NCBI GenBank assembly: GCA_021802645.1
Contig: JAJZRO010000016.1
Span: 1 to 54,702, forward strand
Source of the DNA: Deltaproteobacteria bacterium
GTDB taxonomy: Bacteria; Desulfobacterota; Desulfobulbia; Desulfobulbales; Desulfurivibrionaceae
Reading direction: 5' to 3'
DNA: 54,702 nucleotides
The translations under genes and the position numbers were made by a program. Positions 12,434 through 24,735 of this stretch are shown one piece after another. A model generated the notes under the pieces. That model did not search any database and was not told where the DNA came from. It saw nothing but the letters and a program-made list of their open reading frames with translations. Position 1 is the stretch's first letter. Each line of letters opens with the position of its first letter.

Positions 12434-13383
12434 TTCATCTTCCTGACTAAGAGGTTATCGGCGGTGCTGCTCAACAGCGCCGCCGGTTCGGCCACCGCTT
12501 GGGCGCCGGTGGCGCGCAGCACAACATCGGAGGGGCGGATGCCGGCCACGGTGTTCAGTTGGTCCTTGCTGAAAAAATCGATGGCCAGCCCGCGCGCCTC
12601 GGCAAAGGCAAGCAAGCCTGCCTCGTCCGCCTTCACGTCGATGGAGGCGAGGTTACGGATGGCAAGCTGCGAGAGGTTGTTCTTTACGAACGCCTCGTCG
12701 AGAGCCACTCCGATATCCTCCTTGCTGGTGCCGCGGTTGCAACCAATCCCCACCACCAGATGGCGGGGCCGGAACACGAGTATCCCCTCCGGCCAAGGTC
12801 CGAGCCGGTGGCTCACGATGCAGTCGGCTGCCGTTGGTTCCGCCACCGCCACCAAATCCGCCGGCAGCGACGCCACCGGCACCTCGGAAAAGATCCGCAG
12901 CTCGCCGCGGTTGACCAAAGTGGCGCTGGCCCGGGTGAGGGCCTGGCGCTCCTCTGCCACGAGATTCTGTTCCCGCGCCCAGAGATCGAGGGCGGTATGG
13001 CCGAGGACGTCGGACGCGGTGGTGATCACCGCCTGGCCGCCCGTCACTTTTGCCACCCGCCGGGCCAGGTCGTTGGCGCCGCCAAGATGGCCGGAGAGCA
13101 GACTCACCGCAAAACTCCCTGCCTCGTCCACCACCACCACCGCCGGGTCATGGTGCTTGTCGGTGACGAGTGGCGCGAGGAGCCGCACCACGATGCCGGC
13201 GGCCATGACACAGACCAGGCCGTCGTACTCCTGCCAGAGCGCGGGCATCAGGGCGCCAAGGCCGCTTCGCTGCGGGATCAGGGTCCCACCGAGCGCGGCC
13301 GCGATCTGGCCCGCCAAACGCTGGCCGCCCTCGCTCACTGCCAGGCAGGCGATACAGGGTTTTTCAGGCCTGGCGGCAGCCAT
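12364..13383 (-). CDS. cbiG: Cobalt-precorrin-5A hydrolase CbiG
   Basis: CbiG opens the delta-lactone of cobalt-precorrin-5A and releases acetaldehyde in the anaerobic pathway, so its presence argues for the oxygen-independent route. The 339-residue protein has the CbiG N-terminal part (residues 1-120, with VCVMAAGIVVRLLAP), a middle segment with LSGHLGGANDLARRVA, and the C-terminal domain beginning near residue 205 with VGIGCNRGTSKEDI. The ATG at 13383 (MAAARPEKP) lies 20 bases inside the end of cbiF, typical of translational coupling. An upstream ATG at 13437 would extend further into cbiF and adds no homology. Confidence 0.94.
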   Translation of the reverse strand: MAAARPEKPCIACLAVSEGGQRLAGQIAAALGGTLIPQRSGLGALMPALWQEYDGLVCVMAAGIVVRLLAPLVTDKHHDPAVVVVDEAGSFAVSLLSGHLGGANDLARRVAKVTGGQAVITTASDVLGHTALDLWAREQNLVAEERQALTRASATLVNRGELRIFSEVPVASLPADLVAVAEPTAADCIVSHRLGPWPEGILVFRPRHLVVGIGCNRGTSKEDIGVALDEAFVKNNLSQLAIRNLASIDVKADEAGLLAFAEARGLAIDFFSKDQLNTVAGIRPSDVVLRATGAQAVAEPAALLSSTADNLLVRKMKWKDVTMAVAAAPCTLSAPAPAA

Positions 13384-14134
13384 GGCTGAATTCCTTGTCG
13401 TAGAGCCTGGAGAGGGCGGCGGGCGGCAGTTCGGCAAAGACCCGGCCCACGGCGATGATCGCCGTCTTGTTGATCCCCGCCTCCTCCACCTGGGCGGCGA
13501 TGGAGGAAAGGGTCCCCCGAAGAATCCGCTGCTCGGGCCAGCTCACCTTCTCCACCACCGCCACCGGCGTTTCCGCCGGATAGCCGCCCGATTGGAGATC
13601 GGCCACCACTTCACCGATCATGCCGACGCTCAAGAGGATGAGCATGGTGGCCTGATGGCCGGCAAGGCTTACCAGATCCTGGCCTTCCGGCACCGGGGTA
13701 CGGCCCGCCCGCCGGGTGATGATGACGGTTTGCGACACCTCGGGCAGGGTAAGCTCTGCCTGAAGCGCCGCGGCGGTGGCGGTGGCGGAACTCACCCCCG
13801 GCACCACCTGATAGGGAATCTTGCGACTGTCGAGCGCCGCCATCTGCTCCTTGATCGCGCCGTAAATGGAGGGGTCGCCGGTGTGGAGCCGCACCACCCG
13901 CTGGCCCTGTTGCCAGGCCGCGGCCATGAGCTCGATGATCTCGCCAAGATGCAGGCCCGCCGAATCGTGGACCGCGGCTGCAAGCCCGTCCACCAGCGCC
14001 CGCGGCACCAGGCTGCCGGCATAGACCACCAGATCGGCCTCGGCAAGCAAGCGCTGGCCGCGCACCGTGATCAGCTCCGGGTCGCCAGGGCCGGCGCCGA
14101 CAAAATGGATGGGATGGGTGGGCGTCGCCATCAT
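13364..14134 (-). CDS. cbiF: Cobalt-precorrin-4 C11-methyltransferase
   Basis: CbiF/CobM adds a methyl group at C11 of the contracted macrocycle. The 256-residue sequence shows the signature FVGAGPGDPELITVRGQRLL at the N-terminus, VVYAGSLVPRALVD typical of CobM/CbiF, and the second conserved block RLHTGDPSIYGAIKEQ. The stop of cbiL at 14131 overlaps this start by four bases (ATGA arrangement). Two adjacent ATG codons (14134 and 14131) are possible starts. The gene lies between cbiL and cbiG, the common order in anaerobic operons. Confidence 0.96.
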   Translation of the reverse strand: MMATPTHPIHFVGAGPGDPELITVRGQRLLAEADLVVYAGSLVPRALVDGLAAAVHDSAGLHLGEIIELMAAAWQQGQRVVRLHTGDPSIYGAIKEQMAALDSRKIPYQVVPGVSSATATAAALQAELTLPEVSQTVIITRRAGRTPVPEGQDLVSLAGHQATMLILLSVGMIGEVVADLQSGGYPAETPVAVVEKVSWPEQRILRGTLSSIAAQVEEAGINKTAIIAVGRVFAELPPAALSRLYDKEFSHGCRQA

Positions 14135-14853
14135 TTGCGCACGATCACGGTGGAGAAGTAATGGAGTTCCTCGCGGGCCGCCACGGCCAGATCGCGGCGC
14201 ACCCGCTCCTGGGCGTGGCTCGAACGCTCGACCAAGACTGCCTTGTCAAGCAGATCGAGTTCACTCAGAAGCGACACCACCTTGTCCATCACCCGGTGCA
14301 CCTTCATGAGCACCACGGTATCGAACTGCGCCAGGGTCTCGCGCAACCGGCCGTTCTCGAAGGTGGCCGGAATCACCACCAGCCGGTCATCGCCCAGACA
14401 GAGGGGCTGCCCGACCGCCGCCGCCGAGGCGCCGATGGAGGAGACGCCGGGCACTACGGAAATCAGCGCCTGGGGCGCATACTTGAGCAGGGTATCGCAA
14501 ACGTAGAAGCCGGTGCTGTAGATGGCCGGGTCGCCCAGGGTGGGAAAGGCCACGTCCAGCCCCTGATCGAGTTTGGCCCGGATCGCCTCGGCCGCCAACC
14601 GCCATGCCGCCTCCACCTCGGGGTCGGGCGGCAGCCCCATGCGCACCTTCTTCATGGGGAAGTGGAGTTCCAAAATCTCCTTGCCCGCCGTGGCCACGGC
14701 GCCGGCGAGGATGGCAAGCGCGGTGCTCTCTCCCTCCTGATGCGCCTTGGGCGCGAACCACACCGGGCACTGGTCCAGCAGCCGCGCCGCCTTGAGGGTC
14801 ATGAGTTCCGGATCGCCCGGCCCCACCCCGATCACATAGAACTGTCCCCTCAT
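14131..14853 (-). CDS. cbiL: Cobalt-precorrin-2 C20-methyltransferase
   Basis: CbiL methylates C20 of cobalt-sirohydrochlorin, the first methylation after chelation in this route. The 240-residue protein has GVGPGDPELMTLKAARLL, the conserved FPTLGDPAIYSTGFYV block and VVPGVSSIGASAAAVG, all characteristic of CbiL/CobI. Its ATG at 14853 overlaps the cbiET stop by four bases and its stop overlaps cbiF by four bases, so it is translationally coupled on both sides. It has the standard length of the family. Confidence 0.96.
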   Translation of the reverse strand: MRGQFYVIGVGPGDPELMTLKAARLLDQCPVWFAPKAHQEGESTALAILAGAVATAGKEILELHFPMKKVRMGLPPDPEVEAAWRLAAEAIRAKLDQGLDVAFPTLGDPAIYSTGFYVCDTLLKYAPQALISVVPGVSSIGASAAAVGQPLCLGDDRLVVIPATFENGRLRETLAQFDTVVLMKVHRVMDKVVSLLSELDLLDKAVLVERSSHAQERVRRDLAVAAREELHYFSTVIVRK

Positions 14854-16064
14854 TTCACTCCCACCATGATGGCTATCGGATGCATCCTCTTCTCCTCGCC
14901 CACCGGGAAACTCCGGCGGCTGACGCTGATCTCGTTAATGGTTACCTGAAGCCCGGCCTGGTGCAGCAAGGCGGGGGCCTGTTCCTTGGTGGCATCGGTG
15001 ACGCCGTTCACTACCAGGCGGCCGCCAGGCGTGAGCCGTGGGGCAACGTGATCGACGATCGCCGCCAGATTGCCGCCGCTGCCGCCGACAAAGACCCGGT
15101 CCGGGTCGGGCAAGCCGGCCAGAACCGCGGGCGCCGTCCCGGCGACCACGCTGATGTTGTAGGCGCCAAAGGTGCGGCAATTGGCGCGGATGTTGGCACG
15201 CTCCGACTCGTTGCGCTCCACCGCATAGACCCGCAGGTCGGACGAGAGGCGCGCCGCCTCGATACCGACCGAGCCGCTGCCGGCGCCGATATCCCACAGC
15301 ACCCCGGCTGGCGGCAGCCGCAAACTATGAAGGGTGGCGGCCCGCACCTCGTCCTTGGTGATGAGCCCCCGGCTGTGGGTGATCTCCGGCTCATGCAGGC
15401 CGAAGAGCGGCAAGTTTGTCGCCCTCTCCGGCCGGGTAAGAAGCATGACGTTGAGGTCGCCAAATTCCTGGGCCGCGATCGCGCTAAGCGAGCCGGTATG
15501 CAGCCGCTCATCGGGCAGCCCCAGATTCTCCGCCACCCGCACCGTGTAGCTCGCCGCCAGTTCCGGATCGTCGAGGTTGGCGCAGGCCGCGAGCAGGGCC
15601 TGGACCACGGCGGCCGGGGAGTTGACCCGGTCGGTGAAGCAGAAGACCTTGGCGCGCGGCAACAGCCGGCCGCCGAGTTCCCCCAGCGGGCGGCCATGGA
15701 GGCTGACCACGTCCAGGCCGTCCCATGGCTCGCCAAACCGGCTGCAGGCCAGTTGCAGCGAAGAAAGGGCCGGATGGACCACGACCCGCTCCGCGCCCAG
15801 GCGGCTGATCAGCGTCCGACCGATACCGAAGAAGAGCGGGTCGCCGCTGGCCAGCACCGCCACCTCCATCCGGTCAAGACGCTCCACCACCGCGGCCAGG
15901 GCCTGTTCCACCGGGGCAATGGGCAGTACCTCGATGCCCACGTCTTCCACCAGTGGCCGATGGCGGCTGGAGGCGACGACGCAGCCGCAACGGGCGACCA
16001 AGGCGCGCTGCTCCTCGCCAAGTCCGCTGCCCGGCGCGATGCCGATGAGCTGCACCCTAGACAT
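14850..16064 (-). CDS. cbiET: Fused precorrin-6Y C5,15-methyltransferase / decarboxylase (CbiE-CbiT)
   Basis: This 404-residue protein is a natural CbiE-CbiT fusion, as in CobL. The CbiE half (about 1-205) is a tetrapyrrole methylase with VQLIGIAPG at the start and VLASGDPLFFGIGRTL. The CbiT half (about 235-404) is a class I methyltransferase with GLITKDEVRAATLHSLRL and the SAM-binding DIGAGSGSVGIEAARL, followed by DRVFVGGSGGN. It methylates C5 and C15 and decarboxylates the C12 acetate. The ATG at 16064 (MSRVQL) was chosen because the 23 residues before it read as the shadow of cbiD; it overlaps the cbiD end by 8 bases. Confidence 0.95.
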   Translation of the reverse strand: MSRVQLIGIAPGSGLGEEQRALVARCGCVVASSRHRPLVEDVGIEVLPIAPVEQALAAVVERLDRMEVAVLASGDPLFFGIGRTLISRLGAERVVVHPALSSLQLACSRFGEPWDGLDVVSLHGRPLGELGGRLLPRAKVFCFTDRVNSPAAVVQALLAACANLDDPELAASYTVRVAENLGLPDERLHTGSLSAIAAQEFGDLNVMLLTRPERATNLPLFGLHEPEITHSRGLITKDEVRAATLHSLRLPPAGVLWDIGAGSGSVGIEAARLSSDLRVYAVERNESERANIRANCRTFGAYNISVVAGTAPAVLAGLPDPDRVFVGGSGGNLAAIVDHVAPRLTPGGRLVVNGVTDATKEQAPALLHQAGLQVTINEISVSRRSFPVGEEKRMHPIAIMVGVK

Positions 16065-17169
16065 GCTCCACCACCCTGCCCTGGCTGTCCACCAGATAGA
16101 ACTCCACCGGCAGACCGGCGGTCCGTTCGGCAAAGGCCTTGGCCTCCGTACAGACCAGCCGGACCACCTCGCGCCGGCCCAGGGTCACCAGCCGCTCATA
16201 GAGTTCGCGGGCGGTATTGACCCCTGCCATTTCTTTGAGCAGCGCATCCTCCACCCCCAGCCGCGCCAACAGCTGCACCGCCTCCTCCGCCTCCAGGGCG
16301 CCGTGGCGCACATGAGTCTGGGGAATCCCCATGGCCGCCTTCACCGCCTTGGCCCACATGGCGGCAAGATGGATGCTCTTGAATCCGTGCGCCGCCGCAG
16401 CCTTGAGCGAGAAGTCGAGATAATCACCCATCATGGCCAGCCCCTCCTCGGGCAGGCTCAGCAGCTCCTGCACCGCCCGCTCCGAGGTGCGGCCGGTGGA
16501 AAGCACGATGCTATCGAGCCCGGCGGCGCGGGCCACATCCATGGAGGCAGTGATGGTAGCGGTCCACGCCTCGGCGGACACCGGCCGCACAATGCCAGTG
16601 GTGCCGAGAATGGAGAGGCCGCCTTTGATGCCGAGCCTGGCATTCAAGGTTTTTGTGGCCAGTGCCTCGCCTCCCGGCACGCTGATGGTGACCACCACTC
16701 GGCCTCGGCCGCCGGCTTCGACCAAGGCCTCAGCGACCGCGGCGGCAATCATCCGGCGCGGCACCGGGTTGATGGCGGGCTCGCCCATTGCCACCGGCAG
16801 GCCGGGCTTGGTGACCATGCCCACCCCTTGGCCTGCGCAGAGGAGAAGTTGCTCACCCAGTTCCACACAGCGCGGCGGCCTCTCCTTGCCGGCAAGCCAT
16901 ACGGCCGTGGCCACGATCTCGGCACCGTTGGTCACGTCCGGGTCGTCGCCGGCATCCTTGACCACCGAGGCGAGGAAAACGCCATCCGCCTCGGCCTGGA
17001 AACGGCAGAGGGCAAAGGTCACCCGGCTGCCATCCGGAAAGGGAATGGTGACCGACTCCCCGCCCACCTCGCCGCAGAGGCCCAGCACCGCGGCCTTGGC
17101 CGCGGCTGCCGCGCAGGCGCCGGTGGTATATCCGGAACGCAGCCGTTTCGCCACTATTCCATTCCCCAA
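16057..17169 (-). CDS. cbiD: Cobalt-precorrin-5B C1-methyltransferase
   Basis: CbiD methylates C1 in the anaerobic pathway; the aerobic pathway uses an unrelated enzyme, so this gene supports an oxygen-independent route. The 370-residue protein has the N-terminal signature RSGYTTGACAAAAAKAA, the block KDAGDDPDVTNGAEI and TTGIVRPVSAEAWTATI, all typical of CbiD. The start at 17169 (MGNGIVAK) is the first ATG before the signature. A 110-base gap separates it from cbiC upstream, the largest gap inside the biosynthetic part of the operon; that gap holds dispersed repeat copy 2. Confidence 0.96.
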   Translation of the reverse strand: MGNGIVAKRLRSGYTTGACAAAAAKAAVLGLCGEVGGESVTIPFPDGSRVTFALCRFQAEADGVFLASVVKDAGDDPDVTNGAEIVATAVWLAGKERPPRCVELGEQLLLCAGQGVGMVTKPGLPVAMGEPAINPVPRRMIAAAVAEALVEAGGRGRVVVTISVPGGEALATKTLNARLGIKGGLSILGTTGIVRPVSAEAWTATITASMDVARAAGLDSIVLSTGRTSERAVQELLSLPEEGLAMMGDYLDFSLKAAAAHGFKSIHLAAMWAKAVKAAMGIPQTHVRHGALEAEEAVQLLARLGVEDALLKEMAGVNTARELYERLVTLGRREVVRLVCTEAKAFAERTAGLPVEFYLVDSQGRVVEHV

Positions 17170-17185
17170 TCAAACGTTAACTTTG

Positions 17186-17280
17186 TCAGCTTCACTGCGC
17201 CGCTCCTCGCCGTACTCAACTGTACTGTCTCGTCGCTGCTCGTTTGCCTTCGCGTTCCCATTTTGATTTGGAAACGGAAT
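17186..17280 (-). repeat. Dispersed intergenic element, copy 2 (between cbiC and cbiD)
   Basis: Read on the minus strand, this begins within the stop codon of cbiC and runs almost to the start of cbiD. It matches copy 1 at 8690-8790: the shared blocks are ATTCCG, CAAATCAAAA, GGGAACGCGAAGGC, CGACGAGACA (CAACGAGACA in copy 1) and AGTACGGC. As with copy 1, it lies directly downstream of a gene in sense orientation. Read in the frame of GGG-AAC-GCG it is open for about 40 codons but has no start codon, so I do not call a gene. Within the operon it would be part of the cbiC-cbiD intercistronic mRNA. Confidence 0.72.
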
Positions 17281-17912
17281 TACTGCCCCTCAATAAGACG
17301 CAGCAGGGCATTCACCGTGGCCGCAGCCACCGGACTGCCGCCCTTGCGGCCCAAGGCGGTGATGAAGGGATACCTCTTCCCGGCCAGCATCGCCTTGGAC
17401 TCCGCCGCGTTGACAAAGCCCACCGGCACGCCGATCACGAGATCGGGGCTGAAAAGCCCTTGGTCGATCAGCCGCATCACTTCAAGCAACGCGGTGGGGG
17501 CATTGCCGATGGCAACAATACCGATCTTCTCATTGGCCAGCTGCCGGATCGCCACCTCGGAGCGGGTAAGCCCCAGACGCTTCGCCTCGGCGGCTACCGC
17601 TGGGTCACTCACCCCGCAGAGCACCCGGCCGCCCCACTTGGCGAGCAGCCCCTGGCTGATGCCGTTGGCGGCCATGGTCACGTCGGTGAGCACGTTCTTA
17701 CCGGCCCGGATCGCCTGCAGGGCCGCACCAATTGCCTGGGGATGGAAGCGCAGGTTCTCACTAAAGGAAAAATCGCCGGTGGCGTGGATCACCCGGCGCA
17801 CCACGGCGAACTCGGTCGGGGTATGGCCGGTGGGGCCAAGCTCGGCCTCGATGATGCGGAAGCTCTCCTTCTCTATTTCCTCTGGCTTCACCTGCTGCAA
17901 TTGGATATCCAT
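17280..17912 (-). CDS. cbiC: Cobalt-precorrin-8 methylmutase
   Basis: CbiC moves a methyl group from C11 to C12 and yields cobyrinate. The 210-residue protein contains the catalytic His in RRVIHATGDFSF and the ligand-binding region GVPVGFVNAAESK, followed by GRKGGSPVAAATVNALL near the C-terminus. All are hallmarks of CobH/CbiC. The ATG at 17912 (MDIQLQQ) is one base beyond the cbiA stop and gives the usual length; an upstream start at 17939 would overlap cbiA and adds nine unconserved residues. It is the last gene before dispersed repeat copy 2. Confidence 0.96.
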   Translation of the reverse strand: MDIQLQQVKPEEIEKESFRIIEAELGPTGHTPTEFAVVRRVIHATGDFSFSENLRFHPQAIGAALQAIRAGKNVLTDVTMAANGISQGLLAKWGGRVLCGVSDPAVAAEAKRLGLTRSEVAIRQLANEKIGIVAIGNAPTALLEVMRLIDQGLFSPDLVIGVPVGFVNAAESKAMLAGKRYPFITALGRKGGSPVAAATVNALLRLIEGQ

Positions 17913-17913
17913 G

Positions 17914-19269
17914 CTAATACTCCTGACAGGTGCGGACAAAGTGGGCCGCGACCTCCGGCTGCGAGCCGAAGTGCAGATGGAGATAGCCGCCCAGGGTCCG
18001 GCCGTTGACCAGATACCCTTCCTGCCGGTCGTCGGCCAGGCGGTAATGCCGCGCCACCGCGGACGGCATGGGGTCGATGGTCGAATAATGGAACTCGTGG
18101 CCGCGCAGGGTCGTGCCGGCCGGGCCGACCACGGTATCCGCGGTCACCCTCACCTCGCGGTAGCCAAGGCTCGCCCGGCCCTGCTGCATCCGCGCCTCCA
18201 CCGGATAGACGCCGGCCATGGCATAGAACCGCTCCTCGCGGTCGCGGATGCCCTCGGTGAGGTACATGAAGCCGCCGCACTCGGCATAGAGCGGCCGACC
18301 GGCTGCGGACCACTCCCGGATCGCCTGGAGCATGGGCACATTGGCTGCCAACTGTTCGGCATGGAGCTCCGGGTAGCCGCCGCCCAGGTAGAGGCCTTGA
18401 ATCCCCTCGGGCAAGGCCGGGTCCGTCAGGGGGCTGAATTCCACCAGCTCGGCGCCGGCGGCTGCCAGCCGGGCCAGGTTCTCTTCATAATAAAAGCAGA
18501 AGGCGCGGTCGCGGGCAATACCGATCCGGATCCGCGCCCCGCTTGGCTCCTCTCTGACTGCCGGGGCAGGGTGCGGCTCCGCCGTGGCCGCCAGGGCCAG
18601 CAGCCGGTCGAGGTCGATATGCCCTGCCACGGTTTCCGCAAGCCTCACCAGCGACTCGCTGCTGATCGGCGCCTCGCTGCCCAGGTGCAGGCCGAGATGG
18701 CGCTCGGGGATAACGAATTCCGCCTCCCGCGGCAGGGCGCCCAGCACTTCGGCCCGGCAATGGGCCTTGATGGCGCTGCGCAACAGCTCCAGATGGCGCA
18801 CGCTGCCCACCCGGTTCAAAATCACCCCGACCACCCGCACCGCCGGGTCGAGGGACTCGAAGCCCTTGACCACGGCCGCCGCGCTCTCGGCCATGGAACG
18901 GGCGTCAACCACCAGCACCACCGGCAGCCCGAGCAGTTTGGCAAGCGCGGCACTGCTGCCCGCCCCGCCGTCGAAGAGGCCCATCACCCCTTCCACCACC
19001 GCCACCTCGGCCGTGGCCGCATGGCGGGCAAAGCACTCCCGGACAAAGGCGTCACCGCACATCCAGGGATCGAGGTTGTGGGAGACACGGCCGGTGACCA
19101 GTTGGTGCAGGGTGGGGTCGATGAAATCCGGGCCGCACTTGAAAGGCTGCACCAAGAGCCCCCGCTGCCGCAAGGCGGCCAGCAGCCCCAGGGTCACGGT
19201 GGTCTTACCGGCGCCGCTGTGGGGGGCGGCCAGAAGGACTCCTGGTATGCGACCGCTTCTGGCCTTCAC
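17914..19269 (-). CDS. cbiA: Cobyrinate a,c-diamide synthase
   Basis: CbiA amidates the a and c acetate side chains using glutamine and ATP. The 451-residue protein has an N-terminal dethiobiotin-synthetase-like ATPase domain with P-loop PHSGAGKTTVTLGL (residues 16-29) and the block VVEGVMGLFDG. The C-terminal class I glutamine amidotransferase-like domain has the nucleophile Cys in YAECGGFMYL and the His in GHEFHYST. The ATG at 19269 overlaps the stop of the binding-protein gene by four bases. It marks the furthest point of ring modification encoded here; cbiP, cbiB and the nucleotide-loop genes are not in the window. Confidence 0.96.
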   Translation of the reverse strand: MKARSGRIPGVLLAAPHSGAGKTTVTLGLLAALRQRGLLVQPFKCGPDFIDPTLHQLVTGRVSHNLDPWMCGDAFVRECFARHAATAEVAVVEGVMGLFDGGAGSSAALAKLLGLPVVLVVDARSMAESAAAVVKGFESLDPAVRVVGVILNRVGSVRHLELLRSAIKAHCRAEVLGALPREAEFVIPERHLGLHLGSEAPISSESLVRLAETVAGHIDLDRLLALAATAEPHPAPAVREEPSGARIRIGIARDRAFCFYYEENLARLAAAGAELVEFSPLTDPALPEGIQGLYLGGGYPELHAEQLAANVPMLQAIREWSAAGRPLYAECGGFMYLTEGIRDREERFYAMAGVYPVEARMQQGRASLGYREVRVTADTVVGPAGTTLRGHEFHYSTIDPMPSAVARHYRLADDRQEGYLVNGRTLGGYLHLHFGSQPEVAAHFVRTCQEY

Positions 19270-20198
19270 TTCCTTTCGCCTGCCTTGAAGTAGCGCGGGT
19301 AAAGGAGGCGGCCGAGTTGGCGGATGCCCTCCGTGAGGCGCAGGGTGGGCCGGGCGATCAGCTCCTCGTCCACCAGAAAGACCTTGCCCTCGCGCACCGC
19401 CTTGATGGCGCCGAAGCCCGGCTCGCCGACGATGGTTCCCACCTCCACCCGGTTCATCGGCCCGCTCTCGGCGAGGAAAACGTCGATCATGGCCGCCTTG
19501 GCCAGGATGCGCTCCTTGCCGTAGGCCGCGATATTGGTCTGCCGCACCCGTTCGGCATCGCTGGCCACGTTGATGCCACCCGCCTTCTCCAGGGCGAAGA
19601 TCGCCATGCTGGTGGGGGCGAAGGTCTTCATTTTGGCGTGGATCGCCTCGAAGTAGACGCGCTGGCGCTCCCGCTCCGGGATGGTGGCGACAATGCGGTC
19701 GCTGGCGGCCAGTTCCTCCTGGCAGCGCTTGACCATCGCCTCCGCGGCGGCCGCCTTGCCGGTGAGCAGGCCGAGCTGGCGCCAGTAGGCGTAGGTCTCG
19801 TCGATGCTCACCGGTTGCAGCGAGACCACGGTAATGCCGGCCTCCCTAAGCTTGGCCACCAGCTGCGGGTGGCTGCGCTCGATCATCGGCCGGATCAGCA
19901 CCAGATCGGGCCGGGCCGCGAGGATCCGTTCCGGATCGGCGCGGTAGTCGAAGGTGGGCTTGGTCAATGCCGCCGGCGGATAATCCTCGTGCATGGAGAC
20001 CCCGACGATCTCGCGGTCGAGGCCGAGGCTGAAGAGGTTCTCGGTGTGGGCCGGATAGAGGGAGATGATCCGGCTGAAGGGTTTGGTCACCGTGATGGTG
20101 CGGCCGGCCTCGTCCACGAAGCTGTTGGCACCCCAGGCCGGGAGTGCCGCGCCGACGGCGAGCAGCAGCAACAGCATGGTTCGGAAAATCCGCATCAC
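19266..20198 (-). CDS. Periplasmic binding protein of a BtuF/FecB-type ABC importer
   Basis: The 310-residue protein starts with a signal peptide (MMRIFRTMLLLLLAVGAALP, cleavage probably after AWG near residue 24; no lipobox Cys). The mature part is a Peripla_BP_2 fold with the opening RTITVTKPFSRIISLYPAHTENL and the hinge-region block ARPDLVLIRPMIE. This family binds vitamin B12, haem or ferric siderophores. The cobalamin operon and riboswitch context favours a corrinoid or tetrapyrrole-related ligand, but sequence alone cannot fix it. It directly follows the ATPase gene (stop and start are adjacent) and overlaps cbiA by four bases. Confidence 0.9.
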   Translation of the reverse strand: MMRIFRTMLLLLLAVGAALPAWGANSFVDEAGRTITVTKPFSRIISLYPAHTENLFSLGLDREIVGVSMHEDYPPAALTKPTFDYRADPERILAARPDLVLIRPMIERSHPQLVAKLREAGITVVSLQPVSIDETYAYWRQLGLLTGKAAAAEAMVKRCQEELAASDRIVATIPERERQRVYFEAIHAKMKTFAPTSMAIFALEKAGGINVASDAERVRQTNIAAYGKERILAKAAMIDVFLAESGPMNRVEVGTIVGEPGFGAIKAVREGKVFLVDEELIARPTLRLTEGIRQLGRLLYPRYFKAGERK

Positions 20199-20987
20199 TC
20201 AGCCTCCATAGCGGAAGGATACTTGCAGGGTGCCGCCGAAGTCGTCGCGGGCCACCCGGCTCTCGACGCCAAAGACCTCGGCGATGATGGCGCTGGTGAG
20301 CGTCGCGGCCGTGGGGCCGGCGGCCGCCACCCGGCCCTGGTGCAGAAAAATAATCTCGTCGCAAAAGGCCGCGGCCAGGTTGAGGTTGTGAACCACCGCG
20401 ATCACGGTGTCGCCCTGCCGCACCCGTTCGCGCGCCACCTGAAAGATGGTGAGAGCGTGGCGGATGTCGAGGTTGGAGGTCGCCTCGTCCAGCAGCAGGA
20501 TCGGGGTCTGCTGGGTAAGCGCCCGCGCCACCACCACCCGCTGCTTCTCGCCGCCGGAAAGCTCGGTGACCGGGCGCTCCCGCAGCGCGGCAATATCGAG
20601 GGCGGCCATGGCCGCCTCGGCGATCATAAGGTCTGCCGTAGTCGGGGCGCCGAAGCGCGGCAGGTAGGGGTGACGGCCCATGAGCACCACCTCCAGCGCG
20701 GTAAAGGCAAAGGGGATGGCAAAGTCCTGGGGCACCAAGGCGACCTGGCGGGCAAGTTGCTTGCGGCCCTGGGCTCCGACCCGTTCGCCGTCGAGCCGTA
20801 CTCGCCCCTGCTGCGGCTGCCGGTTGGCCATCAGCAGGTCGAGCAACGTGGTCTTGCCGCAGCCGTTGGGGCCAACCAGGCCATAGAAGCGGCCAGGCGC
20901 CAAGGCCAGATCGATGCCATGCAGAGCCGCCTTGTCGCCGTAGGCAAAGTGGACGTTCTCCAGCAGGAAACCGGCACGCTCAGCCAT
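20199..20987 (-). CDS. ABC importer ATPase (BtuD/FecE type)
   Basis: This 262-residue ATPase energises the importer made with its two neighbours. Walker A is GPNGCGKTTL (about residues 37-46), the ABC signature is LSGGEKQR, and Walker B is ILLLDEATSNLD, followed by the switch His in VVHNLNLA. The sequence is of the FecE/BtuD/HmuV class. The ATG at 20987 (MAERAGF) overlaps the permease stop by 8 bases; a start 48 bases upstream would lie deeper in the permease gene. Position in the cobalamin riboswitch operon suggests corrinoid or cobalt-tetrapyrrole uptake. Confidence 0.93.
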   Translation of the reverse strand: MAERAGFLLENVHFAYGDKAALHGIDLALAPGRFYGLVGPNGCGKTTLLDLLMANRQPQQGRVRLDGERVGAQGRKQLARQVALVPQDFAIPFAFTALEVVLMGRHPYLPRFGAPTTADLMIAEAAMAALDIAALRERPVTELSGGEKQRVVVARALTQQTPILLLDEATSNLDIRHALTIFQVARERVRQGDTVIAVVHNLNLAAAFCDEIIFLHQGRVAAAGPTAATLTSAIIAEVFGVESRVARDDFGGTLQVSFRYGG

Positions 20988-22011
20988 GGAACGCCCCCCG
21001 TTGCCGGAAGAGGTAGCAGAAAAAAGGGCCGCCAATGAGCGCGGTGAGCACGCCGATGGGCACCTCGGCGGGCAGCACCGCCCGGGTCACGGTGTCGGCC
21101 AGCAGCAGCAAAAGCCCGCCGGCCAGGGCCGCCACCACCGCGAGCCGCCGGTTGTCCGGCCCGGCCATCAGCCGCATGAGATGCGGGACGATGAGACCGA
21201 TGAAGCCGATGATGCCGGAAACCGAAACGCAGACCGCCACCACCAGCGAGGCCGCCACCAGCAGAATCCGGCGCACGCGGCCGGTCTCCACGCCGAGGGA
21301 GTCGGAGGCGCGGCTGCCCAGGGCGATGATATTGAGATCGCGGCCGTAGTAGACCGCCACCGCGAGGACGGCCAGCAAGGCGGCGAAGACCACGCCGACC
21401 TGACCCCAGGTGCGGCCGGCGAAACTGCCCATGAGCCAGAAGACGATGATTCCCACCTGTTCGTCGGCCAGATACTTCATGAAACTGATGCCGGCCGCGA
21501 GAATGGCGCCGACGATGACGCCGGCCAGGATCAGGGTGGTCGGCGAGAGCTGACCGTCGCGGGAGGCAAGGAGCAGCACCACCATCAGGGCGGCCACCGC
21601 GCCGGCAAAGGCAAAGAGCGGCACCGGCAGGTGGCCGAGCAGGGTATGGTTACAAAGGAGCGCCACCGAGGCGCCGAAGGCGGCACCGGAGGAGATGCCC
21701 AGGGTGTAGGGGTCGGCCAGCGGATTCAGCAGGATGCCTTGGTAAAGCACACCACAGACCGCGAGCCCCGCGCCGACCCCCACCGCCGCCAAAATGCGCG
21801 GCAGGCGCACGTCGAGCACCACATAGGGAAAGACCGGGTCGAGTCCGGAAGCCAGACTGGCATCGCCGGTGAGCCGGGCCGCAATCACCCGCACCACCTC
21901 GGCCGGGGTGATGCGGATGAAGCCGAGGCCGGTGGAGACGATGATGGCTCCCCCGACTGCCAGCAGCAGCCCCACGGCCAACCACGGATATGTCCGCTGG
22001 GTGGAGGACAT
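20980..22011 (-). CDS. ABC importer permease (BtuC/FecCD type)
   Basis: This 343-residue inner membrane protein has about nine or ten hydrophobic helices and the FecCD family blocks RLPRILAAVGVGAGLAVCG near residue 70, NPLADPYTLGISSGAAFGA and GFIGLIVPHLMRL near residue 260. Such permeases form homodimers with BtuD-type ATPases. The ATG at 22011 (MSSTQRTYPW) begins 5 bases after cbiK ends; the open frame continues much further upstream but only as a shadow of cbiK. The gene sits between the exported cobaltochelatase and its ATPase, so chelation and uptake genes are interleaved. Confidence 0.93.
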   Translation of the reverse strand: MSSTQRTYPWLAVGLLLAVGGAIIVSTGLGFIRITPAEVVRVIAARLTGDASLASGLDPVFPYVVLDVRLPRILAAVGVGAGLAVCGVLYQGILLNPLADPYTLGISSGAAFGASVALLCNHTLLGHLPVPLFAFAGAVAALMVVLLLASRDGQLSPTTLILAGVIVGAILAAGISFMKYLADEQVGIIVFWLMGSFAGRTWGQVGVVFAALLAVLAVAVYYGRDLNIIALGSRASDSLGVETGRVRRILLVAASLVVAVCVSVSGIIGFIGLIVPHLMRLMAGPDNRRLAVVAALAGGLLLLLADTVTRAVLPAEVPIGVLTALIGGPFFCYLFRQRGAFHG

Positions 22012-22016
22012 GGCGC

Positions 22017-22991
22017 CTATCTGAGCTCCAGGCCGTGATCCTTGGCCGCGTCCCGGATGTGCTGCACGAAGATCTCGGCAAAGGCCGGATTTTCGCCCAC
22101 CCCATGCAGATCGACCTGGACGTTCATCCCCCTGGCCTCCAGCCTCTTCTGCCAGGAATCCGATTCCGGCCCGGCCATATCGTTTTGGGCGTGATCGCCA
22201 GCCACGGTCATCAACGCCTTGAGATATACCTTGCGCACGCCATCGCGCTCCAAGGCCGCCACCACCCGCGGCAAGTCGGGAAAGCCCTCCACCACCCCGA
22301 TATAGACCGGGATCTGCGGGTACATCTCCCGCATCACTGCCTCCAATTCCAGGTAGTAGCCGGTGGAGTAATGCTCGTTGCCATGGGCCATATAGACCAG
22401 GGCACGCTGCTCTTTGGCCGCCGCGGCAAAATCCGTCGCCAGGGCCTTGGCGGCAAGCTCGATGTCGTGGCGGTATGGGTGCTCGATGCCCGGAGTGCCC
22501 AAAGCGGGTCGGCCGATGCACATCTGCTTGAAGGGCAGGTTGCGCGCCTTCACGGTGCGGATCGAATTGAAGCCATCCACATAGGCGGAAAGATCGGCAA
22601 ATTCCTCGCCGCTGGCGATGTGAGTCGGCTGGATGATGATGGAGCCGTAACCCTCGTCCTGCAGATCGGCCATGGCCGCGAGCGGCCCCTTGACGTCAAG
22701 GATATCCTTCGGCACCTCGGGGTGCTCGCCACGGTAGCGCGGGTCGTGACGGCGCTGCTGCCAGATCCGGCGGACGATGTTGGAGGTGAAGGCCAGTTCC
22801 ACCCTGGTGTGCGGGAAGGCCCGCTGCACCCGGTCGCGGATGTCGAGGATGCCGGGCAGCCCCTCGATGTGGCTGGTGCCGAAGACCGCCAGCACGATGG
22901 CTTGTTTCTGGCCGGGCTTGGCCGAAGCCGCGAACGGAACGGTCAGAATGAGCAGGGCAATCAGCATTCCATGGATCAGTTTGTTACGCAT
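22017..22991 (-). CDS. cbiK: Exported sirohydrochlorin cobaltochelatase (CbiK, periplasmic type)
   Basis: The 324-residue protein is a class II chelatase of the CbiK family, which inserts Co2+ into sirohydrochlorin. A clear signal peptide (MRNKLIHGMLIALLILTVPF, then AASA before KPGQ) marks it as exported. Conserved parts are AIVLAVFGTSHIEGL, the FTSNIVRRIW region, IQPTHIASGEEF with a candidate metal His, and YMAHGNEHYS with two further His. A periplasmic CbiK form is known from Desulfovibrio. It is the first gene after the cobalamin riboswitch; AGGAAAGG precedes the ATG at 22991. How a periplasmic chelatase would serve a cytoplasmic pathway is unclear, and haem-related roles have been discussed for the family. 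Confidence 0.92.
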   Translation of the reverse strand: MRNKLIHGMLIALLILTVPFAASAKPGQKQAIVLAVFGTSHIEGLPGILDIRDRVQRAFPHTRVELAFTSNIVRRIWQQRRHDPRYRGEHPEVPKDILDVKGPLAAMADLQDEGYGSIIIQPTHIASGEEFADLSAYVDGFNSIRTVKARNLPFKQMCIGRPALGTPGIEHPYRHDIELAAKALATDFAAAAKEQRALVYMAHGNEHYSTGYYLELEAVMREMYPQIPVYIGVVEGFPDLPRVVAALERDGVRKVYLKALMTVAGDHAQNDMAGPESDSWQKRLEARGMNVQVDLHGVGENPAFAEIFVQHIRDAAKDHGLELR

Positions 22992-23059: not shown

Positions 23060-23139
23060 CGGCGGCAGAAGAAACTCCGCCCCCATCAAGCCCGTTGCCG
23101 TCCCCTTTCCGCGAAGGAGCCTCGAAATACCGAAGTGGC

Positions 23140-23330
23140 ACAGAGCAAACAGGCAGGTCTCCTGGCTCTTCCCCAAGGCCGGCGCGCCTTCCCGTTTCTC
23201 GTTACAGAAACAGTGGCGTCTGCGCCGGCTGCGTTCGCTCCGACAACCTCCGGAGCGAACAGGAATGACAGTGGCGGGACCGCTCCCGATTTACACGGGA
23301 TTCCCTCGAAGGAGACGGCAAAACAATATG
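23140..23330 (-). promoter_or_regulatory. Cobalamin riboswitch upstream of cbiK operon
   Basis: Read on the minus strand the leader shows the canonical core: GAGGGAA, then CCCGTGTAAATCGGGAGCGG, then CCCGCCACTGT, a peripheral hairpin (GTTCGCTCCGG...CGGAGCGAAC), GGGAAGGC, and the B12 box AGCCAGGAGACCTGCCTG at about 23150-23167. These are the conserved blocks of the adenosylcobalamin aptamer. It lies about 150 bases before the cbiK start and should repress the whole cobalamin/importer operon when cobalamin is bound. No T-tailed hairpin is seen between aptamer and gene, so translational control or Rho-dependent termination is more likely than intrinsic termination. Confidence 0.93.
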
Positions 23331-23337
23331 GACACAA

Positions 23338-23356
23338 TTGCATTGAAGCGATGCAA
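23338..23356. other. Small inverted repeat before the cbiK riboswitch
   Basis: TTGCAT and ATGCAA are separated by seven bases just upstream of the aptamer. It could belong to the operon promoter region or extend the aptamer base, but the spacing of -35/-10 boxes around it is not convincing. Further left, towards 23470, a hairpin CAGGATCG/CGACCCTG (23424-23444) flanks a T8 run on the plus strand; neither is well placed as a terminator for the gene ending at 23471. Confidence 0.25.
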
Positions 23357-23470: not shown

Positions 23471-24442
23471 TCAAAAGGTAACCCAGTAGTAGGCGATGCC
23501 CACCACGATGATGCTGCCGATCCGGAAGGCCTGGCTGCAGAAGACCAGTTCCGCGGCGAGGCGCGGGCTGAAGATGCCGGCATAGTACGGATACTGATGA
23601 CGGAAGGTGCGCACCGGCGAGGCAAGCACGTTGCCGACCAAAAGCGCCAGCACCACCTGACGGGCGCCGAGGGTGCCGGTCGCGAGCAAGGCGCCGGCCG
23701 TGGCCAACCCGGCCGCGAACTCGGCCGCCACCTGGGCGACCACGATGCCGAAGCTGCGCGGGTCGAGCCAGGCGAGCAGGGAGAGATGCTCGGTCATCAC
23801 ATGTTCCAACCGATGGAAGAGCCCCAGCCGATGCATAAAAAAGATGAGGGTATAGATCGGCACCGTGAAGAGGATGATCTTGCGAATCCGCCGCCGGAAA
23901 CGCTGCCAGGCCTTGTCGAGGGCCTGGCGCATGGTCACCGGCCGGTGGGCGGCAAGCACCGCGTCAACATCACCCGCACCCCGCCGGACCAGCAGCAACC
24001 TCCCTGCCGCCAGCACCAGGACGGTGCGCAGCAGGGCCGCCAGCAGGGTGAGCCCCACGTAGAGAAAGGCGGCCATCTTGATGAGCGGTGCGGTGAGGAA
24101 GAAGACGGTGGGCAGGTGGATGAAGTAATTGGGCAGACTGTTGAAGAGGTTGGCCAGCACCAGTTCCTGTTTGGTCAGCCGCCCCTGGTCGTAGGCCTCG
24201 GCCAGGATGGTGTTGGAGCCCACCCCGGAGAAGAAGGCCATGGAAAAACTGGCGCCTGCGGTCTCGGAAAGATGGCCGATACGGATGAGCGGCTTGGCCA
24301 GCAGGGCAAGCCCCCTGGTCCAGTTCAAGGCCTCGATGAAGTTGGCAAAGAGCAGGCCCATGGAGACGCTCACCACCAGGCGGATGAGCGGCCAGCCAAG
24401 TCCGTGCCACAGCGCAACGAGGGTCAGTGCGTGCGTTTTCAT
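23471..24442 (-). CDS. Gate-domain membrane protein under cobalamin riboswitch control
   Basis: This 323-residue protein has about eight hydrophobic helices and resembles nucleoside-recognition/Gate domain proteins: two Gate-like halves with FFSGVGSNTILAEAYDQG and NLFNSLPNYFIHLPTVFFL in the first, and VAAEFAAGLATAGALLATG plus LLVGNVLASPVRTFRHQYPYY in the second. No ATPase partner is coded next to it. Being controlled by its own cobalamin riboswitch, it is a candidate transporter of cobalt, a corrinoid or a precursor; that function is inference. The ATG at 24442 lies just after the riboswitch terminator, and the upstream in-frame part of the frame runs through that terminator, so the earlier start is unlikely. 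Confidence 0.85.
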   Translation of the reverse strand: MKTHALTLVALWHGLGWPLIRLVVSVSMGLLFANFIEALNWTRGLALLAKPLIRIGHLSETAGASFSMAFFSGVGSNTILAEAYDQGRLTKQELVLANLFNSLPNYFIHLPTVFFLTAPLIKMAAFLYVGLTLLAALLRTVLVLAAGRLLLVRRGAGDVDAVLAAHRPVTMRQALDKAWQRFRRRIRKIILFTVPIYTLIFFMHRLGLFHRLEHVMTEHLSLLAWLDPRSFGIVVAQVAAEFAAGLATAGALLATGTLGARQVVLALLVGNVLASPVRTFRHQYPYYAGIFSPRLAAELVFCSQAFRIGSIIVVGIAYYWVTF

Positions 24443-24453
24443 AGGTATACCAA

Positions 24454-24493
24454 TAAAAAAATCCCCGGACCGATATTGCATCGATCCGGGGAT
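24454..24493 (-). terminator. Intrinsic terminator of the second cobalamin riboswitch
   Basis: On the minus strand ATCCCCGGA (24493-24485) pairs with TCCGGGGAT (24469-24461), the loop holds a further CGAT/ATCG pairing, and a run of seven T follows (24460-24454). It sits between the aptamer and the ATG at 24442, the position expected for a premature terminator that is formed when cobalamin binds. Confidence 0.85.
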
Positions 24494-24549
24494 TCCCTGA
24501 TTTCTCCACGTGATCCGGTAGCAGGCCCCCCGTCCACGGCGGCATGCTT

Positions 24550-24735
24550 CCCCTCCCAGGCAGGTCTTCTGACTTCCGGCTCGTCCTCCTGCCGCGCCTT
24601 CCCATCAAAATGACAGTGGCCTTGTGCGGCATTCGTCCCCGGTTACAGCGGCGGGCCCGTCCCGGATTCGCACCGGGTTCCCTCTTTCTGCTCGGCTAAG
24701 AGCACCTGGGTGGTTATCGGCTCTTACTAATAGAA
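24550..24735 (-). promoter_or_regulatory. Cobalamin riboswitch upstream of the Gate-domain gene
   Basis: The minus strand shows GAGGGAA, CCCGGTGCGAATCCGGGACG, CCCGCCGCTGTAACCGGGGA, GGCCACTGTCA, GGGAAGGCGC and the B12 box AAGTCAGAAGACCTGCCTGG (about 24556-24575). An upstream AGGTGC-containing hairpin (AGAGCC...GGTGCTCTTAGCC) closes the 5' side. It is followed by an intrinsic terminator, so it acts as a transcriptional OFF switch. The kinase gene ending at 24752 lies only a few bases upstream, so a promoter would have to overlap its end, or transcription could continue from it. Confidence 0.95.

Follow-up and report, generated by a model that had tools for sequence, protein, structure and literature searches.

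Regulatory context, gene order, and co-occurrence across genomes suggest that the Gate-domain permease encoded in the window (the whole analyzed stretch of 54,702 nucleotides, contig JAJZRO010000016.1 of a Deltaproteobacteria bacterium) is probably an adenosylcobalamin-repressed, CbtX-type cobalt(II) importer for de novo cobalamin synthesis. This reading is supported by the riboswitch and terminator belonging to the permease gene itself, co-occurrence with CbiK and CbiD, and recurrent linkage of homologues to B12 clusters; it draws further support from linkage to CobN and ChlID, from the failure to find another dedicated importer among the families searched, and from the published prediction for CbtX.

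Organization and regulation of the B12 locus

The permease gene forms the head of a B12 locus (Table 1), in which it is followed by a second riboswitch, cbiK, btuC-btuD-btuF, cbiA-cbiC-cbiD-cbiET, and then the methylase genes. Because of this second riboswitch and the cbiK, btu, and cbi genes downstream, the permease and its leader are not the self-contained unit described in the original prediction. The complete cobalamin aptamer that it placed before the gene was, by contrast, recovered in full: both riboswitches cover positions 1–189 of the 189-position RF00174 model and score above its gathering threshold of 31.5 bits (cmscan).

Table 1. Features of the B12 locus in the window
Feature	Position	Strand	Basis
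Cobalamin riboswitch aptamer (RF00174), first of two, 5′ of the permease gene	24542..24724	−	cmscan 120.9 bits, E 7.5e-30
Intrinsic terminator hairpin and T-run, expression platform of riboswitch 1	24455..24498	−	folding; T-run by reading
CbtX-type Gate-domain permease, 323 aa, predicted cobalt importer	23471..24442	−	ORF; weak Gate match; CNT-like model
Second cobalamin riboswitch, between permease and cbiK	23135..23352	−	cmscan 67 bits, E 2e-14
CbiK-family cobaltochelatase with N-terminal signal peptide	22017..22991	−	PF06180 E 2.3e-71; N-terminus reading; PDB relatives 2xvx, 1qgo
btuC-like permease of corrinoid ABC importer	20980..22011	−	PF01032 E 4.4e-90; top NCBIfam match BtuC, under its cut-off
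btuD-like ATPase	20199..20987	−	
btuF-like periplasmic binding protein	19266..20198	−	PF01497 E 6e-17
cbiA (cobyrinic acid a,c-diamide synthase)	17914..19269	−	NF002204 534.9 bits, over cut-off
cbiC	17280..17912	−	PF02570 E 4.4e-74
cbiD	16057..17169	−	TIGR00312 over cut-off
cbiET fusion	14850..16064	−	TIGR02467 and TIGR02469 over cut-off
Two tetrapyrrole methylases, probable cbiF and cbiL (names inferred)	13364..14853	−	PF00590 in both

Between the first aptamer and the permease gene, the minus-strand region 24500–24440 folds into a 20-bp hairpin (−29.3 kcal/mol, z −5.2, with no shuffled sequence folding equally well), though a simple terminator scan did not list it. The T-run ends 12 bases 5′ of the ATG at 24442; the terminator itself had been correctly anticipated, with the spacing given as 11. 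Homologues start at the same place as this ATG, which is preferred over an upstream ATG at 24481 because the latter sits within the terminator stem. Elsewhere in the host genome, a third cobalamin riboswitch (L115, G000:C4:65680-65839) precedes a ThiC-family gene whose product is probably a BzaF-type lower-ligand enzyme.

Family, fold, and conserved residues of the permease

The match of the window permease to the Gate domain (PF07670) is weak (E 0.0013, 19.6 bits) and falls below the curated cut-off of 29.6, whereas 41 of 46 aligned homologues match the domain (E up to 0.01). An AlphaFold2 model built from the 46-row alignment (mean pLDDT 88.2, pTM 0.83) contains about 14 helical segments, in place of the eight helices originally counted. 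The top Foldseek matches of this model are the concentrative nucleoside transporters (CNTs) CNTnw and vcCNT (E from 0.017 upward, prob 0.98–1.00), with VIA Z scores of 11.7 to 12.3 and an rmsd of 4.7 over 285 residues, although Z scores of this kind may reflect a common arrangement of helical proteins. INDY, NaDC, and Pho90 follow close behind, and the comparison therefore points to an elevator fold type and not to a substrate; the modeled fold is consistent with an elevator-type carrier, and the substrate is not certain from it. The nearest folds transport nucleosides, dicarboxylates, phosphate, or sulfate. The cobalt reading is weakened to the extent that these are carriers of organic solutes and anions, not of metals. 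Searching PDB sequences with the family profile gave no match up to E 1, and an internal sequence repeat between the two halves of the permease was unsupported (hhalign probability 5%).

Among the 129 permease sequences compared, H109 is identical in all, and E37, N77, N101, P104, N271, P276, R278, and H282 are nearly invariant; this conservation marks them as candidate site residues. Position 105 was also considered as a specificity site, being R, N, or T in riboswitch-linked and T in unlinked copies within the order, and was rejected on the failure of this pattern in distant B12-linked members.

Relationship to CbtX

A comparative survey described cbiK-bearing delta-proteobacteria with no homologue of the cobalt transporters then known, and proposed cbtX (COG3366) as a new cobalt transporter candidate from its clustering with cbiK (Rodionov et al., 2004; PMC545781). 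CbtX was later included among predicted cobalt transporters and reported in seven archaea (Zhang et al., 2009; PMC2667541). No experimental work on CbtX was found in the papers searched, and its predicted role as a cobalt transporter comes from comparative genomics. The original prediction of a new transporter class is mostly wrong in light of these two publications; its proposal of a cobalt or corrinoid transporter was a fair reading, with cobalt the better of the two, but its premise that nothing alike was known is wrong at the level of prediction.

The window permease clusters with cbiK in a B12 locus, as CbtX does, and CbiK is present in every genome with a riboswitch-linked permease (19 of 19). 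A homologue of the window permease (profile E 1.3e-33) occurs in the order riboswitch-cbiK-cbiL-cbtX-cbiC-cbiD in genome G286, which we infer to be Desulfovibrio-like. Because the riboswitch-cbiK-cbiL-cbtX order fits the published description for Desulfovibrio, the window protein was treated as CbtX-type, and by sequence it appears to be a further member of this predicted kind. A plasmid search for permease homologues, aimed at archaeal relatives, returned no match.

Distribution and genomic context of homologues

The permease gene was identified in 39 of 58 related genomes and in 69 of a phylum-wide sample of 297, usually as one copy per genome. Context was surveyed for the best 80 homologues, with riboswitches called by covariance model and some loci cut by contig ends. 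A co-directional cobalamin riboswitch lies upstream of 20 of these, 16 directly and four in a riboswitch-cbiK-cbtX arrangement; two more sit upstream of a riboswitch-btuCDF operon, and the remaining 58 have no nearby riboswitch. Two clades of a 92-sequence tree contain most of the B12-linked copies, and all six members of the clade containing the window permease are riboswitch-linked. The outcome that the original prediction had named as counting against it, homologues mostly without riboswitches and clustering with unrelated functions, therefore describes the family as a whole (58 of 80) but not the window clade.

Other families of the phylum again show linkage to cbi and btu clusters (L171-L178, L181, L188, L194, L196, and L198), with homologues at approximately 26–60% identity. 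One cbtX homologue lies between CobN and ChlID genes (L199, 1671-6258), and ChlI/ChlD-like neighbors adjoin those at L197 and L200; in these contexts, the permease family is linked to other kinds of metal-inserting enzymes. In two species of one genus, a BtuF-like binding protein is fused in frame to the CbtX domain (L172:2633-4591, plus strand; L155, in G240).

Unlinked homologues adjoin sppA, universal stress protein, insulinase-like protease, rnhA, and other genes; the order sppA–permease–universal stress protein–insulinase is conserved at L066, L108, L182, L202, and other loci. Seven genomes with an unlinked copy contain neither CbiD nor CbiK, and a role in corrin synthesis is thereby excluded for these copies at least. 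Given such genomes, and the 58 of 80 homologues lacking a riboswitch, the family reaches beyond B12 loci, and its unlinked relatives show that it cannot be labeled as a whole a family of cobalt transporters.

Co-occurrence with corrin synthesis

Among the 58 relatives, genomes with riboswitch-linked cbtX contain CbiK in 19 of 19 cases and CbiD in 18 of 19, the exception being 60% complete; the corresponding counts are 13/20 and 11/20 for genomes with unlinked cbtX, and 5/19 and 6/19 for those without cbtX. The difference between the riboswitch-linked and cbtX-less groups gives Fisher values of 2e-6 for CbiK and 1e-4 for CbiD, which ignore kinship and include several incomplete genomes. Within one genus, cbiK is present in all nine cbtX-positive genomes; five genomes of this genus lack cbtX, cbiK, and cbiD but still have a riboswitch, behind which lie genes for a TonB-dependent receptor and a BtuF-CbiZ fusion, with cbiA, btuF, btuC, and btuD also behind the riboswitch in three of the five loci. 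Since these cbtX-less genomes carry B12 uptake genes but no cbiK or cbiD, the permease appears to follow corrin synthesis and not corrinoid uptake, and cobalt is therefore favored as its substrate. The BtuF-CbiZ fusion, after a riboswitch and TonB receptor in apparently corrinoid-salvaging genomes, can be seen at L117:3889-5886.

No NiCoT was found in the window genome, and its sole CbiM homologue adjoins NikR elsewhere in the genome. No other cobalt-dedicated importer was therefore found among the families searched, though some cobalt could also enter through the NikR-linked ECF importer, which would count against the cobalt reading.

A CbiK predicted to be exported and possible alternative substrates

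A signal peptide is present on every riboswitch-linked CbiK whose N-terminus could be read. Neither a second CbiK nor any CbiX or CobN was found in the window genome (99.4% complete), so that the one cobaltochelatase recognized there is predicted to be exported. Such an arrangement invites a different reading, in which the permease works with exported CbiK and BtuCDF to carry a tetrapyrrole across the inner membrane, be it sirohydrochlorin, cobalt-sirohydrochlorin, or a corrinoid, and part of metalation or salvage is periplasmic. The BtuF-CbtX fusion, which links the family to corrinoid ABC import and so also speaks against cobalt, points the same way, as do the organic-anion and nucleoside carriers among the nearest folds. 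However, the permease is absent from genomes that only salvage corrinoids, a Met8/SirC-like protein present in the window genome could metalate in the cytoplasm, and the CobN/ChlID-linked homologue fits a metal better; we regard a tetrapyrrole substrate as rather unlikely. A more elaborate and quite doubtful form would join exported CbiK and CbtX in one module under B12 control: capture of cobalt, or even its insertion into the tetrapyrrole, would take place outside the cytoplasm, the product would then pass through the permease, and the BtuF-CbtX fusion would be a variant.

The breadth of the family bears instead on whether the B12-linked copies belong to a general permease for another divalent metal (e.g., nickel or iron) or another small solute and were only recruited into B12 regulation. 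The usual single copy per genome, the many copies beside sppA, universal stress, insulinase, or rnhA genes, and the seven genomes with neither CbiD nor CbiK speak for such recruitment; the recurrence, across many families, of neighborhoods with cbiK, cbi genes, or CobN/ChlID, and loss of the permease along with cbiK and cbiD inside one genus, argue against it and make it improbable. The role of an ordinary nucleoside permease was rejected, with no purine or pyrimidine genes or riboswitches seen in the B12-linked loci. Against cobalt import itself stand the location of most homologues outside B12 loci and the case of G020 (L123, G020:C93:68881-69526), where two riboswitches 264 bases apart precede cbiK, cbtX is absent between them, and the cbi genes are kept.

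Proposed function and significance

Under the cobalt-importer reading, plentiful adenosylcobalamin would bind the leader RNA, allowing the terminator to form and turning the permease gene off, and cbiK with the cbi and btu genes would be shut off alongside through their own riboswitch; under B12 scarcity, importer, chelatase, and corrin pathway would be made together. The permease would act as a secondary transporter, probably elevator-type and with a predicted inward direction, its polar site arranged around invariant H109 and near-invariant N101, N77, and E37. The adjoining exported CbiK may present cobalt on the periplasmic side, in a putative hand-over between the two proteins.

How many sulfur-cycling anaerobes without cobalt-dedicated CbiMNQO or NiCoT obtain cobalt for B12 has been the subject of a prediction standing since 2004. 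The window offers a clean test case: a single-copy permease with its own riboswitch, a single exported cobaltochelatase, and no other cobalt-dedicated importer found. Should the permease prove to transport cobalt, a metal-ion carrier would join the CNT-like elevator fold, and a function could be assigned to a family widely annotated as "nucleoside recognition"; the unlinked relatives are at the same time a warning against spreading a cobalt annotation over the entire family.

Comparison with known systems

CbiMNQO and NiCoT importers share the presumed job of the window permease and, in other bacteria, its B12 control; these ECF-type ATP-driven (CbiMNQO) and NicO (NiCoT) families are, however, unrelated to it. 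The CNTs are the top structural matches of its model, at approximately 10% identity and with no match under a Foldseek E of 0.001. The periplasmic Desulfovibrio CbiK (2xvx/2xvy/2xvz) is a sequence relative of the window CbiK (E 4.3e-35), which also has a signal peptide. D. vulgaris is said to have a cytoplasmic CbiK as well, whereas none was found in the window genome. The closest parallel is CbtX (COG3366), likewise a delta-proteobacterial transmembrane protein encoded beside cbiK, with which the permease is equated on the published description; a homologue with 26% identity to the window permease (L171) occupies a riboswitch-cbiK-cbiL locus that matches the Desulfovibrio account. The window permease differs from the described CbtX loci in having its own riboswitch, ahead of cbiK.
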